A DNA stretch of 22,868 nt from a virus (IMGVR_UViG_3300042902_000085:1-22868); one strand, 5' to 3'. Numbered from the stretch's first letter, positions 5,246-12,923 are shown. Numbers and translations: made by a program. The notes: generated from the letters alone by a model not told the origin.

Positions 5246-5575
5246 TTACTTATTCTTCGTATATTCCTTGAAAGATTTTAAACTTTGTCCAGGAGTATCA
5301 TTGATATACGATTTTACTAATTCATCTGTGCCCTCTTGACCACCACCAGATTTTGGAAGAATATCTTTCTTCACTTCTTCATACACACTTTTATGTAGTT
5401 TAGTGTTGGTAACAGATTGAACGATATCCCAAACACCCTTATGATTCTTTTTATCTAGATGTGTTTGGAATTTCTTTTTCTGTTCAGGAGTAGCAACTTT
5501 ATGAAACTTAATTAATTCCATAAGTCCAATGTTTCCTTCATAAGATGCTTCGATCAATTCTTTAAACTTTAACAT
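5246..5575 (-). CDS. Conserved small phage protein with capsid-targeting-like N-terminus; function unknown
   Basis: A 109-residue basic protein starting MLKFKELIEASYEGNIGLMELIKFH. I recognise the NIG-x-x-E-(L/M)-(I/V)-KF pattern from uncharacterised proteins of marine T4-like phages but know no function. Residues about 20-60 are predicted to be helical and Lys-rich (PEQKKKFQTHLDKK), followed by VWDIVQSVTN. The first nine residues end in L-I-E, matching the hydrophobic-x-Glu cleavage motif of T4 prohead protease gp21. There is no transmembrane segment. It begins two nt after the stop of the gene upstream, so it is probably translationally coupled. If packaged in the head, it would be a small basic internal protein. 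Confidence 0.75.
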   Translation of the reverse strand: MLKFKELIEASYEGNIGLMELIKFHKVATPEQKKKFQTHLDKKNHKGVWDIVQSVTNTKLHKSVYEEVKKDILPKSGGGQEGTDELVKSYINDTPGQSLKSFKEYTKNK

Positions 5576-5576
5576 T

Positions 5577-5849
5577 CTAGTCTCTCGTTAGGGATAAGAT
5601 TTTTTCAATTTGCTTTTCAATAACTGGTCCTCTATTGGGCCAACGAATCAACTCTTGATCTCTTGTTTTATATAGATTTGTCAGAAATGGCATAATAATT
5701 TTTTCTACTTGTCGAAGTCTTTCTTTATATTCTTCAACTGTCTCATCTTTCTCAGCAATAACTGCTTGAAATTCTTCTTCAGATTCTGTGGAAAATCCAA
5801 AGTCTGAATCTCCATATTCTTCCATTAGTTTAGAGATGTCGTATTTCAT
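5577..5849 (-). CDS. Small acidic/coiled phage protein of unknown function
   Basis: A 90-residue protein: MKYDISKLMEEYGDSDFGFSTESEEEF at the N-terminus, an acidic Glu-rich helix (about residues 25-55, ETVEEYKERLRQVEKII) that could form a coiled coil, then PFLTNLYKTRDQELIRWPNRGPVIEKQIEKIL. The F-G-F-S acidic start and the W-P-N-R motif with the helix after it are features I associate with small uncharacterised proteins common in marine T4-like phages. No catalytic motif is visible. ATG at 5849 immediately follows the TAG of the His-rich gene (5852-5850). The acidic charge contrasts with the basic proteins on either side, so it could be a binding partner; that is only a suggestion. Confidence 0.75.
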   Translation of the reverse strand: MKYDISKLMEEYGDSDFGFSTESEEEFQAVIAEKDETVEEYKERLRQVEKIIMPFLTNLYKTRDQELIRWPNRGPVIEKQIEKILSLTRD

Positions 5850-6593
5850 CTATTTTTTATTCCTCATGTTTCCAAGAACATAATTTAAATGGTGTTTATT
5901 CATTATATCATGTGTGGATTTTTCAACACTTTTGGGGTGAGCCCTGAAATTTACTTGCATTCCAGTTCCATTTTCATTTTGTCCTCCACCACTTCTTTCA
6001 GTTGAAACCTGAAAATGTCCCGTTCCTTTAAGTGCAGGAAGACCTGTCGAATGCACATCTTTAAGATGACTTTTGCCTGCCCGATATGTTCCTCTATCAT
6101 GTATATGTATTACATGAACATCATGATCTTTCATATAAGCGTGAGCTGGCTTCATATCAGTATGATCGGCTTTAAAACCTGGTAGTATTTTTCCTGGTCC
6201 AGGTTTTCCCCAATGTTTATTTAAATGTTTGAAGAGAGGAACTCCATTGACCGTACTTTTCTCAACTTCGCTTGCTAGATTTGGTTTTTCTTTTTTAGTT
6301 TTTTCGCTTACATGCCAACCATGTTCGTGATGATATCTAATAGCGACAGATCCTAGTTTTGCTCCAGAGATACTTTTTTTCGTTTCTCCGTGAATAGTTT
6401 TTCTAAAAACTCCACCCACTTTATCCGCACCACTAGAATGCATAAGGTGAAAATCGTGGCCGCCAGTTGATCCCGCAGCCGCAGAATTTTTATCCATGGC
6501 TCCATGCTGTTTCAGGTGATCAACTAATTTTTTTTCCAAACTAAAAGCATGTGATGTGTCGGATTCTGTTATAAAATTTAAAAAGGATTTCAT
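5850..6593 (-). CDS. His-rich basic protein with capsid-targeting-like N-terminus; function unknown
   Basis: A protein of 247 residues from ATG 6593, which overlaps the upstream stop as TAATG; an in-frame ATG at 6605 is less likely because it lies deeper in the upstream gene. Its start MKSFLNFITE is strikingly like the T4 internal-protein leader (from memory, MKTYQEFIAE), matching at M, K, the aromatic, F, I and E. About 26 of 247 residues are His, many in HxH or HH pairs (YHHEHGWH, HVIHIHD, KHHLNY), and Lys and Gly are also abundant. The Gly/Ser-rich stretch near residues 39-57 and GGGQNENGTG near 205-215 look flexible. Metal- or nucleic-acid-binding is plausible from composition. I know no functional homologue. 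It sits directly after the ligase-like gene. Confidence 0.8.
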   Translation of the reverse strand: MKSFLNFITESDTSHAFSLEKKLVDHLKQHGAMDKNSAAAGSTGGHDFHLMHSSGADKVGGVFRKTIHGETKKSISGAKLGSVAIRYHHEHGWHVSEKTKKEKPNLASEVEKSTVNGVPLFKHLNKHWGKPGPGKILPGFKADHTDMKPAHAYMKDHDVHVIHIHDRGTYRAGKSHLKDVHSTGLPALKGTGHFQVSTERSGGGQNENGTGMQVNFRAHPKSVEKSTHDIMNKHHLNYVLGNMRNKK

Positions 6594-7825
6594 TATTTGT
6601 CCCAAGCCTTTGCGGCATTAAAGTTCTGTTGAGAGAACTCCATTCTGTCCACTAATTTTAAAGCACCGCCAGATATTCTATCAACTGCCACGAAACCTTC
6701 CGGACCAGTAACTTTGAATCCTTCAGGTGTTCTCACAAATGTATCCATTGATGATTTGATGACTTCCAATTTACGAATAATAAAATCTTTCGCTTCAACA
6801 ATAAGATTCATCAAATCAAAAATCAACTTCAATTGATTAATATTGTTTTTATAAAATCGCATCACCTCAGTTTTTTCGGCTTGACGATTCTTTTTTGTGT
6901 CTGCCCGTTTCGCCTCAATAATTGATTTGTTGAGTTTATCTTCGACCCACTTAATCAATTCGACAGTATGTCTTCCAGTATCACGTATTTGTTCACCAGC
7001 ACGAACTTTAGTGTTGTTAAATGTTTTTATCTGAATCAATATTTTATCGACACTTGATATTCTATTCAAACTTGTTGCACTGATGGATTGAAAAACTCTA
7101 CCCGCTTCAGATAAAATTGAATTTAATCTTTTTGTTTCATTTTCTGTGAAAGTAGATGTTCCTGAAGCATCAACAAAAGATGCATCTCTAAACCATACAT
7201 CACGAGTCTGTTTGAGATGTCCAATGTCTATGTTGAAAGATGCTTTTAACGTATCTATTGTTCTGCCAGAATATGCTGTATGGAATACAATTCCCAATTG
7301 TGCGGAAAGAATGCTCTTTGATAATTTTGTATCAGTAGGAACAGCATACACAATCGTATTTGGTTGAAATGTGATATACGAAACGCCATCAATGGTTTGT
7401 TTTTTTGTATCACCTTTAGTGAAAAGAAGATCACCTTGAAGTATTCCAGTTATTCCAAGTTTAGGAAGAAACGCAAGTGCATATTTCAACTTATCATTTA
7501 AACCAGGATTTGGATGATTTCTGTCTATGTCATCATTTGTGTAATTAATCTTACCTTCTTTATTGAAAACAGACTTTGTTCCAACAAAGAATTTCCCAGT
7601 CTCAGGATTGATTCCACATATGACAGCAGGTGCACCATCCCATTTCGTGGTAACATTGACTTTAGATTTAGATTGACCAGAAAACATATCACGTAATGAA
7701 CGTAAAAAGTTGATAGATTCTCTAGCACCTTGGACACCTCGATTTAAAACATTATCTTCCAAATGTTCTAGATGGAGATTCGCTCCAGTATTTTTTGATT
7801 CGTTTAAGTATTGTTTAAAGTTCAT
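6593..7825 (-). CDS. DUF6267-like protein with ligase/nucleotidyltransferase motifs
   Basis: A 410-residue protein. It resembles a family of marine T4-like phage proteins that I know as DUF6267 (recall, not a search). The sequence shows the ordered motifs of the covalent nucleotidyltransferase (DNA/RNA ligase, capping enzyme) superfamily: KWDG at 61-64 (motif I, K61 as the AMP-accepting lysine), GKFFVGTKS and EGKINYT just after (position of motif Ia), QGDLLF at 130-135 (motif III-like), EGFV at 376-379 (motif IV-like) and LKLVDR at 389-394 (motif V). A long helical, Lys/Arg-rich insert (about 290-360) separates motifs III and IV, which is unusual. The N-terminus MNFKQYLNE ends in hydrophobic-x-Glu, like T4 head-targeting leaders. 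It starts one nt after the previous stop. An enzyme joining or adenylylating nucleic-acid ends is inferred. Confidence 0.72.
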   Translation of the reverse strand: MNFKQYLNESKNTGANLHLEHLEDNVLNRGVQGARESINFLRSLRDMFSGQSKSKVNVTTKWDGAPAVICGINPETGKFFVGTKSVFNKEGKINYTNDDIDRNHPNPGLNDKLKYALAFLPKLGITGILQGDLLFTKGDTKKQTIDGVSYITFQPNTIVYAVPTDTKLSKSILSAQLGIVFHTAYSGRTIDTLKASFNIDIGHLKQTRDVWFRDASFVDASGTSTFTENETKRLNSILSEAGRVFQSISATSLNRISSVDKILIQIKTFNNTKVRAGEQIRDTGRHTVELIKWVEDKLNKSIIEAKRADTKKNRQAEKTEVMRFYKNNINQLKLIFDLMNLIVEAKDFIIRKLEVIKSSMDTFVRTPEGFKVTGPEGFVAVDRISGGALKLVDRMEFSQQNFNAAKAWDK

Positions 7826-7826
7826 G

Positions 7827-9053
7827 TTAGTATATTTTCACAAAAGGTCCGTTAGTGTCTCTAAATTCTTTCTTAGCGCCATAGTAAAGAGTTTTCAACC
7901 ATTCTTCAATCAATTCATTTTTTTCTATTAATGCCCAAGCATATGCCCAACGCATACAAGTTAATTTCGATGAAAGTCGTCCAGCTGCATATCTACTTGA
8001 AGATTCGTTCATTATACAATAATCCAAAACTTGATCAAATGAACCTTTAGAAACTTCTTTGTTTTTATAAAAAACTTTCATGTCACCAAAATATATATTC
8101 ATTTTGTTAACTTTGAGTTTAGAAAGTTCTTTTTGGAAACTTATCCAATATTTTTTATCTTCTTCTTTCCATTGTCCTGGCGCAGGAATATGTGGATCTT
8201 TACCTGCGTTGACAGGTCTAATGATTCTTAACTTATTATAATACTTTGAGAAGAAATCGTCAATAGCATCAGCTGAAGATTTACCTATTTTAGCGCCAGC
8301 ATCTTTACCTGTTGGAGTAAGATCAGTTTGAACACCGCCTCTAGGAGAAGATATGTTAAAATTTCTAGTTTGCCAGTTTACATCAGTTTCTCCAACTTTA
8401 AATTGACCCGAAATTTCACCATTGTCTATTTCTGTTGGAGTTTTACTATTTGTACCAAAATTTAAAAAACATTTAAGTGGTCCATTGATGGAGAATTGCA
8501 ATTCTTTTTGTTTACCTTTACCCATATTTGACAATTCAAGGTCAGCTTTAACTTTAGATTTAGATATAGCTTTCAAAGATACCGGTACCAAATCATATGA
8601 CTGTATCAGTTCTCTCATGTAGGCATTCAAAGAATATAGATTCGCCATCTGATCAGGATTTTTTGTTATCTGGTCTATATTTTTTTTGATTGCATTCTCT
8701 TTTGATTTCTTTACAATATATATGTCAGCTGGATTCCAATTATCTTTAGTCTTAACACCGCAACGACTCTTAGCAATATCTTCTATGTAAGTCATGAATC
8801 CCGAATTCTCATCTCTTGAATATGAATAACCCTTATTATTCTTTAAATAAGATTTAAGTGCTGCAGCCTGTTTCACATATGTTGACATCCAAATTTCTCG
8901 CAAAAGTTTGTTCTTTGCTAAATCCGGATAAACAGAAGATACTACAGAAAATAATTCCGATTCCGAAGGAATTTTAGAACTTTCTATATATTTTTGAAAA
9001 AAAACTTTAGAACCATTTTCCTGTTTCGCAGTTTCAATAGCATTTCCAGCCAT
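7827..9053 (-). CDS. Putative PD-(D/E)xK-like nuclease, first gene of the late cluster
   Basis: A 408-residue protein from ATG 9053; the GTG at 9059 is in frame but a GGAG Shine-Dalgarno is correctly spaced for 9053. I do not recognise the family by name. Landmarks are a helical N-terminal part (1-95), then KDNWNPADIYIV (residues 103-114), a helical segment NLYSLNAYMRELI and DLVPVSLKA (154-162). An Asp at the end of a P-A-D strand followed some 45-50 residues later by hydrophobic-S-L-K is the layout of PD-(D/E)xK nucleases, with Ser in place of the usual acidic residue. Residues about 165-260 appear beta-rich (KADLELSNMGKG, CFLNFGTNSK). The C-terminus has RWAYAWALIEKNELIEEWL. It follows the late promoter and directly precedes the ligase-like gene. 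Confidence 0.55.
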   Translation of the reverse strand: MAGNAIETAKQENGSKVFFQKYIESSKIPSESELFSVVSSVYPDLAKNKLLREIWMSTYVKQAAALKSYLKNNKGYSYSRDENSGFMTYIEDIAKSRCGVKTKDNWNPADIYIVKKSKENAIKKNIDQITKNPDQMANLYSLNAYMRELIQSYDLVPVSLKAISKSKVKADLELSNMGKGKQKELQFSINGPLKCFLNFGTNSKTPTEIDNGEISGQFKVGETDVNWQTRNFNISSPRGGVQTDLTPTGKDAGAKIGKSSADAIDDFFSKYYNKLRIIRPVNAGKDPHIPAPGQWKEEDKKYWISFQKELSKLKVNKMNIYFGDMKVFYKNKEVSKGSFDQVLDYCIMNESSSRYAAGRLSSKLTCMRWAYAWALIEKNELIEEWLKTLYYGAKKEFRDTNGPFVKIY

Positions 9054-9074: not shown

Positions 9075-9082
9075 TATTTATA
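9075..9082 (-). promoter_or_regulatory. T4-type late promoter (TATAAATA)
   Basis: The intergenic gap 9054-9091 contains on the sense strand TATAAATACTC, an exact match to the T4 late promoter box TATAAATA recognised by RNA polymerase with gp55 and the gp45 clamp coactivator. It lies about 20 nt upstream of the ATG at 9053, leaving room for a short leader with the GGAG Shine-Dalgarno. There is no -35 element, as expected for this class. It divides the replication operons from the cluster at 9053-5246 and implies that cluster is expressed at the virion-assembly stage. Confidence 0.75.
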
Positions 9083-9091
9083 ATACTATGT

Positions 9092-10204
9092 TTACCGGAT
9101 AATGTCAATCTCAGTGTTGTTTGTCCAAACCTCAATTTCAGTGCGAAGTCTGTTCTCAGATTTCAAAGACTCATAACGGTTCGTTGCCTTTTTCTTCCAC
9201 CAATCAATCAGATTATTAAGATTATGTTTATCATAGTTCTCATCTTTTACAATCTTGTCTTCTTTTCCAGCAACTATTTCACGGAAGTTTTTTATACCAT
9301 AGTTGCAATAGTAGTATCTTTTCTTTTCGGTCAATTGCTTAGTTTTATCAATAAATGAACAGAATTCTTCATATTCATTTCCACCTTTCAATCCACTCTT
9401 GATCAGAGACACAGCAGTATTCATGATCCTAAGTTTTCTATTAGAAACATCTTCATCAACTATCGGTGATCCATTAATTTCATCAAGATATTGTTTCAAA
9501 TTTTCATAAGGTTCACCATGCATCATAGGAAGAAAATCTGAAACCGTGACACCACTAAATCGCAGGAATGGTTTCATACCATCATATTGAGACACACTCT
9601 TAGTTGTTCCGTATAAACTTGTTGTTTCAAACAGACACATGTTCATGTCATATTTCTTATTGATCATATCACGAACTTCATGTGAACAACAAATTGCAGC
9701 AAGTAGTTTACCACCAATGTAATTGAATCCGAAAGGTTGAGTTGGAACAATAACGAATCCCATCAATGAAGATTTATTGAATGATTTGATCAAATCTGTT
9801 TCACTCGCCATATTATATCCCAACATATCATTTCTTGGTTTCATCATAATTGTGGGAGATCCAAATCGAATAAATCCAACCCATTTCTGAGTTGTCTTTT
9901 CAAAAACAGCCAGTTTTATATTTCTTCCAGGATTAGATGTATTGATGTGTGATGAAGTGATATCAAGATAATTCTGCCAACGATTCGAATCTAGATCAAC
10001 AATCTCAAAATCCATATCGTTGGGTGTAATATCAAAATTGGAAAATAAATCTTCTTCTGGTCCACATCCAGGCAATGCAGTAGTTACATTGGATAAAGAT
10101 TTCAACTTCTGATCTCGCATATATTCATCAATTCGTTCAAACTTATCAAAGTAGTCTGTAAAAATCTTTGCACAATGCAGAGACTGTTCTTTAGTCAATT
10201 TCAT
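9092..10204 (-). CDS. DUF4338/DruA-like protein downstream of the replicative helicase
   Basis: A 370-residue cytosolic protein overlapping the helicase stop by 4 nt (ATGA). The middle third resembles DUF4338, the domain of the Druantia defence protein DruA and of some transposon-associated proteins: KLAVFEKTTQKWVGFIRFGSP (97-116), the conserved KPRNDMLGYN region (122-131, compare family K-x-R-D-x-x-I-G-W), then a strand before a loop and helix (GFVIVPTQPFGFNYIGGKLLAAI, 149-171) and YDMNMCLFETTSLYGTTK (185-202), where the family has L-L-E-T-F-V and a G-T pattern. The C-terminal third is basic and Trp/Tyr-containing (RYYYCNYGI, LIDWWKKKATNRYESL). Position behind gene 41 suggests a role in replication, recombination or counter-defence. 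The family link is by pattern recall and should be tested. Confidence 0.65.
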   Translation of the reverse strand: MKLTKEQSLHCAKIFTDYFDKFERIDEYMRDQKLKSLSNVTTALPGCGPEEDLFSNFDITPNDMDFEIVDLDSNRWQNYLDITSSHINTSNPGRNIKLAVFEKTTQKWVGFIRFGSPTIMMKPRNDMLGYNMASETDLIKSFNKSSLMGFVIVPTQPFGFNYIGGKLLAAICCSHEVRDMINKKYDMNMCLFETTSLYGTTKSVSQYDGMKPFLRFSGVTVSDFLPMMHGEPYENLKQYLDEINGSPIVDEDVSNRKLRIMNTAVSLIKSGLKGGNEYEEFCSFIDKTKQLTEKKRYYYCNYGIKNFREIVAGKEDKIVKDENYDKHNLNNLIDWWKKKATNRYESLKSENRLRTEIEVWTNNTEIDIIR

Positions 10205-11932: not shown

Positions 11933-12923
11933 ACCTCTTTGTAATAAAGTTTTTAAATTTATCAGTTTCTAAAATTGGTTCCCAGAAACTAGCGTTGTCT
12001 GTATCCGCTAATCGTTTCTTATCTCCAATCTCACCAGTTTCCTGATCAACCTTTGCATACCAACCATTTGAAGGTTTAACAACAAAATTGCCTTCAATCG
12101 CAACGTCCATTAATCCAGAATACTTATGTATTCCACCTTCGAATGAAACTGTGATGGGAATCTTAGACTTCTCACGAACATATCTAGACTTCTCAACATT
12201 GATGATGAAATTGTAACCAGTAATATCTGCTCCAGTTTTTTCTTGTTGACGACCTAAGATGTAGATATTATCTGCTGAATAATAAGAACCTGTACCACCA
12301 CCAACAATATCTTTCGGAAACATTCCAATTTCTTTGTATGTGTGATTAACAACAATCATAGGAATATCTTTCATCGTCAAGTGTGGTGTTACCATTCTGA
12401 ACAGAGACTTGACTTGTTTAGCCCGAGACATATCTGCAACAGATTTGCCATCAAGTGCATCATCAACTTCTTTCTTTGATGCTAAGTTACCGATTGAATC
12501 AAGAATGATGATAAGTTTATCACCACGTTCCAAATTCTGCAACTGTTGCATAATATCAAATTTCAATTGTTCAATATCAGTAAGTGGCGTGTGTAGCACA
12601 CGATCCATATCAATATCAAATGTTTCAAAGTATTTGGCTGGCGTACCAAACTCAGAATCATAAAACAACAAAATTGATTCAGGATATTGCTTCATATATG
12701 CATTTGCCATCAATAGACTGAATGCTGTCTTGAAGTGTTTACTTGGACCAGCCCACATGGTGAGACCTGGTGTTAAACCACCATCAAGTTTTCCAGACAA
12801 AGCAACATTGACCATGGGTACAGATGTTGATACCATATCCTTTTCTGTAAAGAATTTGGAGTCTGAAAGTATGGAACTATCTTTAATTGTACTATTTTTC
12901 TTCAACTTATCAAGTAGAGACAT
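11868..12923 (-). CDS. uvsX: UvsX RecA-like recombinase
   Basis: A 351-residue strand-exchange protein of the RecA/Rad51 superfamily, forming filaments on ssDNA for recombination-dependent replication and repair. Walker A is GPSKHFKT (59-66; the T4 form is GPSKSFKS). FYDSEFGTP (88-96) carries the catalytic Glu region. KLIIILDSIGNLASK (137-151) is Walker B with D143. MIVVNHTYKE is the L2-proximal strand, and VGGGTGSYYSADNI matches the DNA-binding loop region. The length is near T4 UvsX (391). The start has AGGAG seven nt upstream and a perfect sigma70 promoter just before it. The 3' end overlaps the next gene by up to 65 nt. Confidence 0.95.
   Translation of the reverse strand: MSLLDKLKKNSTIKDSSILSDSKFFTEKDMVSTSVPMVNVALSGKLDGGLTPGLTMWAGPSKHFKTAFSLLMANAYMKQYPESILLFYDSEFGTPAKYFETFDIDMDRVLHTPLTDIEQLKFDIMQQLQNLERGDKLIIILDSIGNLASKKEVDDALDGKSVADMSRAKQVKSLFRMVTPHLTMKDIPMIVVNHTYKEIGMFPKDIVGGGTGSYYSADNIYILGRQQEKTGADITGYNFIINVEKSRYVREKSKIPITVSFEGGIHKYSGLMDVAIEGNFVVKPSNGWYAKVDQETGEIGDKKRLADTDNASFWEPILETDKFKNFITKRYGISYGSIMGQTPVLEKAEEA

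Follow-up and report, generated by a model that had tools for sequence, protein, structure and literature searches.

Do phages related to T4 use a short N-terminal leader to load enzymes into the head? The question is raised by three genes of one late cluster in IMGVR_UViG_3300042902_000085:1-22868, a 22.9-kb IMG/VR virus record (this whole stretch is called the window here) that is a fragment of a marine T4-like phage and in which we counted 31 gene starts. An earlier note had read the N-termini of the three encoded proteins, which we name for their start positions or for the family DUF6267, as capsid-targeting leaders. The open reading frames and N-terminal residues are as that note gave them, all three lying on the minus strand and starting with ATG at 6593 (MKSFLNFITE|S), 7825 (MNFKQYLNE|S), and 5575 (MLKFKELIE|A), the bar marking the predicted cleavage site. 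We consider it likely that T4-type capsid-targeting propeptides, which load enzyme cargo into the head, make up the first 9-10 residues of the DUF6267 and 6593 proteins and, probably, of the 5575 protein. The genes and their leaders are:

6593-7825, minus strand: DUF6267 protein, 410 residues, KWDGAP motif, leader-bearing (PF19782, E 9.8e-116, residues 16-406)
7799-7825, minus strand: leader MNFKQYLNE of the DUF6267 protein, predicted cleavage E9|S10
5850-6593, minus strand: 6593 protein, 247 residues, His-rich, leader-bearing (relatives in two other contigs only, leader in both)
6564-6593, minus strand: leader MKSFLNFITE of the 6593 protein, predicted cleavage E10|S11
5246-5575, minus strand: 5575 protein, 109 residues, variant leader (junction conserved in relatives)
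5549-5575, minus strand: variant leader MLKFKELIE of the 5575 protein, predicted cleavage E9|A10

The known system closest at hand is the capsid-targeting sequence (CTS) of the T4 internal proteins IPII and IPIII, and we confirmed in the T4 genome that IPIII starts with MKTYQEFIAE. MKSFLNFITE is identical to this sequence at five of ten positions rather than at six, as had been counted. Work with amber suppressors assigns targeting in IPIII to residues 4 and 7 and processing to residues 8 and 10 (PMC9026906), and the residues conserved in the DUF6267 leaders are those at the IPIII-critical positions. Length, position, aromatic residues at 4 and 7, an aliphatic residue at 8, glutamate at 10 and late expression are shared with the T4 CTS, and the capsid cleavage motif is present in relatives; the DUF6267 leaders are one residue shorter but keep the same spacing from the glutamate. 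In contrast to T4, the mature proteins are unrelated to the internal proteins, the cargo is enzyme-like, and targeting and cleavage are predicted. T4 cargo bearing a CTS is delivered into the cell, and a review of T4 suggests that, through CTSs, T4-like phages can package a variety of proteins (PMC9026906).

We defined a core pattern as an aromatic residue at -6, an aromatic or aliphatic residue at -3, I, L, V, or M at -2, and glutamate at 0; a genome-wide scan with a looser pattern was dropped because its weak enrichment was mostly noise, and the stricter core was used instead. MKSFLNFITE and MNFKQYLNE fit the T4 capsid-targeting/gp21-cleavage pattern exactly, and the core is found at 2 of the 31 gene starts, where its frequency at internal positions of these proteins predicts 0.063 (P about 0.002). 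MLKFKELIE has the spacing aromatic-x-x-L-x-E, one residue shorter than the core, and thus does not share the spacing of the other two leaders; when the shorter spacing is allowed, three starts are found versus 0.37 expected (P about 0.006). Across the window and 38 related contigs (39 sequences), there are 38 leaders versus 2.2 expected at internal positions, 32 of them in one family. Within single genomes, most cyanophages are enriched in the core pattern modestly or not at all (S-SM1, P 0.34; S-CAM9, P 0.22; HTVC008M, P 0.37), from which it follows that the leader marks few proteins per genome. Lambda and the T7-like phage P-SSP7 are without leaders, but with 0.1-0.2 expected they are uninformative as controls. 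In five Kyanoviridae genomes, the leaders concentrate near DUF6267, being present in 4 of 95 genes there versus 3 of 885 elsewhere (Fisher P 0.0023).

Alignment of homologue N-termini, which had been proposed as a check, gave a divided answer: the leader is found in all 31 IMG/VR DUF6267 homologues with an intact N-terminus and in all relatives of the 6593 protein, whereas the 5575 register is not kept and most cyanophage DUF6267 proteins are leaderless. Among the 22 distinct DUF6267 leaders, glutamate, L or I at -2, and F, Y, or L at -3 are each present in 22/22 and F at -6 in 19/22, with positions -5, -1, and +1 being variable. MRARELLTE and MRARELLAE, from contigs L038 and L039, are without the aromatic residue at -6. 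These two contigs, which hold more distant relatives, also have adjacent genes starting MNEMRKIMEA, MRAFELLE, MRARELLTEA, and MNDMRKLMEA, all leader-like with hydrophobic-x-E and few aromatics. The Pfam domain begins at residue 16, so that the leader lies outside it. Moreover, the leaderless homologues of S-CAM9 and S-PRM1 start M-AKNTHLEH, which is the predicted mature end of the leader-bearing ones (ISE|AKNVHMEH), as though an entire propeptide had been gained or lost.

The leader is portable, being carried by DUF6267, the 6593 family, HAD-like proteins, cytidylyltransferases, RimK ligases, kinases, and SAM hydrolases, which are unrelated families, and unrelated families that occupy one genome slot bear the same leader. 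The notion that it is tied to one protein family was rejected, since cyanophage DUF6267 can be leaderless. All three members of the 6593 family (in the window, in L003, and in one contig listed as L002 and L023) have a leader, those of the relatives reading MKRFITFLYES and MKSFLNFLKES; tblastn against annotated phages gave no match to the 6593 protein, no relatives were detectable outside the three contigs, and an AlphaFold model from the three sequences was useless (mean pLDDT 35). A HAD-like protein in L025 and L026 starts MKSFRNFLTEE. In Melnitz-3, a RimK-type ATP-grasp protein bears the leader MTQKFSQFITEE (TTG start), the gene before DUF6267 starts MQGFKTFLSEA, and DUF6267 itself starts MINFSKYITED; two further proteins, a cytidylyltransferase fusion (MKKFSEIIEA) and one resembling P-loop kinases (MKTFAELQEG), bear the shorter variant. 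Contig L034 (1734-3785) encodes a leader-bearing fusion of cytidylyltransferase, RimK-type ATP-grasp, and putative zinc protease domains. Homologues of the 5575 protein keep the junction [ILV]-x-E|A[AS]Y.GNIG (L004, L005, L016, L018, and L023), and their upstream residues are variable (MLKFKELLE, MFKSKVDE, MNNFKEQAKINE), the aromatic register not being kept. With the classic targeting register absent, we regard a cleavable propeptide on the 5575 protein as plausible and its chances as evenly balanced.

Virion proteomes of related phages provide a separate line of evidence. The core pattern was fixed before the 236 called genes of S-CREM2 were compared with the published virion list (PMC10665884, Table 3). 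Three of the 236 genes match, all encoding virion-detected enzymes (3/52 versus 0/184; P 0.010), namely a SAM hydrolase (MKDFDSFLEE), an APH-like kinase ((V)KRFDAFLTEE), and a cytidylyltransferase (MKNFSSFLTEA). If leucine is allowed at -6, gp13 (MKDLHSFLTE), which is in the virion list, fits, and one non-virion gene then fits too. DUF6267 of S-CREM2 (gp87) is leaderless and absent from the virion list, a matched control of one protein. The fourth of the non-lysis virion enzymes carries a Cas9-like annotation; its residues 19-25 (RFASFMAEA) hold the same core, which the S-N03, MA01, and S-CRM01 counterparts conserve, and its sequence suggests a longer propeptide. In this protein (S-CREM2 gp12, L132 7704-10313; L144 4922-5473; L145 from 3743; L146 from 3716), the leader core sits some 16-20 residues into an N-terminus with a conserved [SR]RW..W. 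In S-SM1, the T4-GC190 cytidyltransferase has been detected in virions (PMC3037559); it starts MKKFSAFLNEA and adjoins DUF6267 (T4-GC71), numbering being taken from the S-SM1 sequence record. Leaders of its homologues read MKKFSTFISEA, VKSFGQFLTEA, MKNFFQFLTEA, MKSLFQFLNEA, and MKSFTSFFTEA, and distant members in the jumbo phages CBB and Deifobo start without one. The NMNAT detected in S-SCSM1 virions (PMC9602691) starts MKSFLQFLKEA, and its first 31 residues are 48% identical to the N-terminus of the 6593 protein, a weak match (E 0.04). In addition, an S-CRM01 kinase reported in virions, according to a citation in PMC10665884, starts MISFDQFLSEK.

A candidate for the protease that would act on such leaders is encoded by the complete relatives. 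Peptidase S77 (gp21) genes are present in all complete T4-like relatives tested (Melnitz-3, HTVC008M, Syn9, S-SM1, S-CAM9, and T4), whereas the window and the five partial contigs tested, all of them fragments, yielded none. All 22 distinct DUF6267 leaders end in a hydrophobic-x-Glu motif of prohead-protease type, and the same motif occurs in the major capsid protein (gp23) of relatives: GGILQE|ASPTN in contig G002 (DUF6267 65% identical to that of the window), AFLSE|AAPTN in Melnitz-3, and GLLTE|APTQ in S-CREM2, these boundaries being predicted from T4 SFLTE|AEIG. Support for the capsid-targeting reading is good for 6593 and 7825, on the basis of the IPIII-critical positions, the unrelated families, the gp23 motif, and three proteomes, and is weaker for 5575, in which the junction is kept but the aromatic register is not.

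In the mechanism that we infer for core binding, cleavage, packaging of the window's own proteins, and ejection, late expression would be followed by binding of the leader to the prohead core by way of the aromatic residue at -6 and the aromatic or aliphatic residue at -3. On prohead maturation, a gp21-type protease would cut after [IL]-x-E, the mature protein would stay in the head, and it would presumably be delivered with the DNA into the host. The leader is a portable tag, present in marine T4-like phages on unrelated enzymes whose genes lie mostly in a single late cluster close to those for replication. We think it somewhat probable that this is a general, sequence-readable system in such phages (Kyanoviridae and relatives), in which a 9-10-residue leader loads a changing enzyme set for delivery at infection and the cargo is predictable from N-termini. 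That set would comprise, with similarly restrained confidence, the nucleotidyltransferase-like DUF6267, NMNAT/cytidylyltransferase, kinases, SAM hydrolase, a Cas9-like nuclease, and a HAD-like protein.

The view of the earlier note that enzyme cargo in marine T4-like phages would be new holds only in part: cytidylyltransferase/NMNAT, kinase, and SAM hydrolase had previously been described from virions (PMC3037559, PMC9602691, PMC10665884), but the literature searched names no targeting leader for them. The cyanophages concerned (S-SM1, S-SCSM1, and S-CREM2) are likewise Kyanoviridae, with an overlapping genome slot and the same leader on their tagged enzymes; the window differs in tagging DUF6267, the 6593 family, and the 5575 family and in having no cytidylyltransferase, and those papers describe no leader. 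The ejection proteins of phiKZ and SPN3US likewise have N-terminal propeptides, cut from packaged proteins by the prohead protease after x-x-E, but these are mostly far longer (over 100 residues) and have other motifs (PMC5694885). Literature searches that combined capsid targeting with cyanophages or Synechococcus turned up no description of such leaders in marine phages, most subscription journals lying outside them, and the novelty of the link between leader and enzymes is accordingly provisional. Cyanophage virion proteomes repeatedly show metabolic and regulatory enzymes for which their authors could not decide between cargo and contamination; a conserved, putatively cleavable leader on the same enzymes would be a mechanism separating the two. 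If so, some of the sea's most abundant viruses would deliver pre-made enzymes before any phage gene expression, a simple rule would list the cargo of uncultured phages, and DUF6267, a widespread family of unknown function, would gain its first place of action.

Several observations weigh against cargo loading by this leader. The S-CREM2 association rests on three matches, all of the virion evidence comes from related phages, and the authors of the proteomes state that co-purified cytosolic protein or contamination is possible (PMC3037559, PMC9602691, PMC10665884). In S-SCSM1, gp282 (phrog_1462), gp280, gp279, and gp089 are leaderless, yet annotated as virion proteins; a requirement of the leader for virion entry was rejected on these grounds. 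Cyanophage DUF6267 proteins are mostly without a leader, the spacing in the 5575 leader differs from that of the core, the window contig, a fragment, has neither gp21 nor gp23, and cleavage is predicted from the motif for all tagged proteins.

An alternative that we consider unlikely keeps prohead-core targeting and cleavage of the leaders but gives the proteins a part in head assembly, as scaffold or internal structural components that stay behind at infection. In its favor, several leaderless cluster neighbors are also virion proteins; against it, the tagged families are enzyme-like (cytidylyltransferase, kinase, SAM hydrolase, RimK ligase, and HAD), which better fits cargo, and T4 CTS cargo enters the cell (PMC9026906).

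Less probable still, we believe, is that the leaders are small amphipathic helices of the folded protein or of a partner complex, such as a clamp- or replisome-binding peptide, with neither targeting nor cleavage. Other partners could be bound by F-x-x-F-L peptides, replication genes are close neighbors, and the AlphaFold model of DUF6267 has a short helix at residues 3-9, albeit one of low confidence (block mean pLDDT 56). The absence of the leader from homologues whose first residues are those of the predicted mature protein, recurrence of the leader on unrelated enzymes, virion detection of leader-bearing enzymes, and an invariant glutamate, often followed by a small residue as in a protease site, argue instead for a cleaved targeting propeptide. 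Finally, coincidence among short low-complexity N-termini is very improbable, for although the motif is short and the relaxed pattern of the 5575 variant occurs at about 1.2% of internal positions, the conservation across 31 diverged DUF6267 homologues, the excess of leaders in the 39 sequences (32 from one family), and the link to virions in S-CREM2, S-SM1, and S-SCSM1 largely refute it for 6593 and 7825, the leader reading of 5575 being a toss-up.

As to what DUF6267 does, a near-invariant KWDGAP and the later EGFV and KLVDR resemble ligase/nucleotidyltransferase motifs I, IV, and V, from which we would guess, at the level of motifs, a KxDG nucleotidyltransferase or ligase. Neither sequence nor fold (Foldseek) searches gave a PDB match, hhalign gave no link to T4 open reading frames, and the late motifs are just where the AlphaFold model is poor.

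All genes of the window lie on the minus strand, in the order clamp, clamp loader, polymerase, UvsX, gp41-type helicase, DruA-like gene, late promoter, five-gene cluster (9053 to 5246), and glycosyltransferase-like genes. The remaining features of the cluster are:

9075-9082, minus strand: T4-type late promoter TATAAATA, exact consensus, just upstream of ATG 9053, heading the five-gene late cluster
7827-9053, minus strand: phrog_1462 protein (PHROG match), first cluster gene, without leader; the family member in S-SCSM1, gp282, has a virion-protein annotation
5577-5849, minus strand: 90-residue conserved protein between tagged genes, its start (YDI..[IL][LM].E) loosely leader-like

The placing of the tagged genes behind a late promoter is borne out by the position of this element, which is conserved in L004, L013, L016, L020, L022, and other contigs and in Melnitz-3 (at 12156), but not by its number, two copies in the window versus 2.2 expected. 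Translation within the cluster is probably coupled, because ATG 6593 overlaps the DUF6267 stop and ATG 7825 is close behind the preceding stop, and the starts are supported by relatives, in which Met stands at the same place. The slot directly behind the promoter (7827-9053 in the window; the gene before DUF6267 in L009, L013, L016, L020, L025, and L028) is hypervariable, holding at least six PHROG families (1462, 13937, 22045, 26930, 2496, and 3560). The start of the highly conserved 90-residue protein (YDI..IL.EYG) has a loose likeness to an Alt-type leader. The protein encoded at 9092-10204 (minus strand), in the interval from the helicase gene to the late cluster, matches DruA (PF14236, E 1e-10; phrog_19197), a Druantia-related domain in a phage; many related contigs conserve this protein. 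Related contigs also have GIY-YIG-like and HNH-like endonuclease genes inserted within the cluster or close to it, and downstream of gp23 (L022 6283-6924, L028 7399-7938, and L123 1866-2423, reverse strand).
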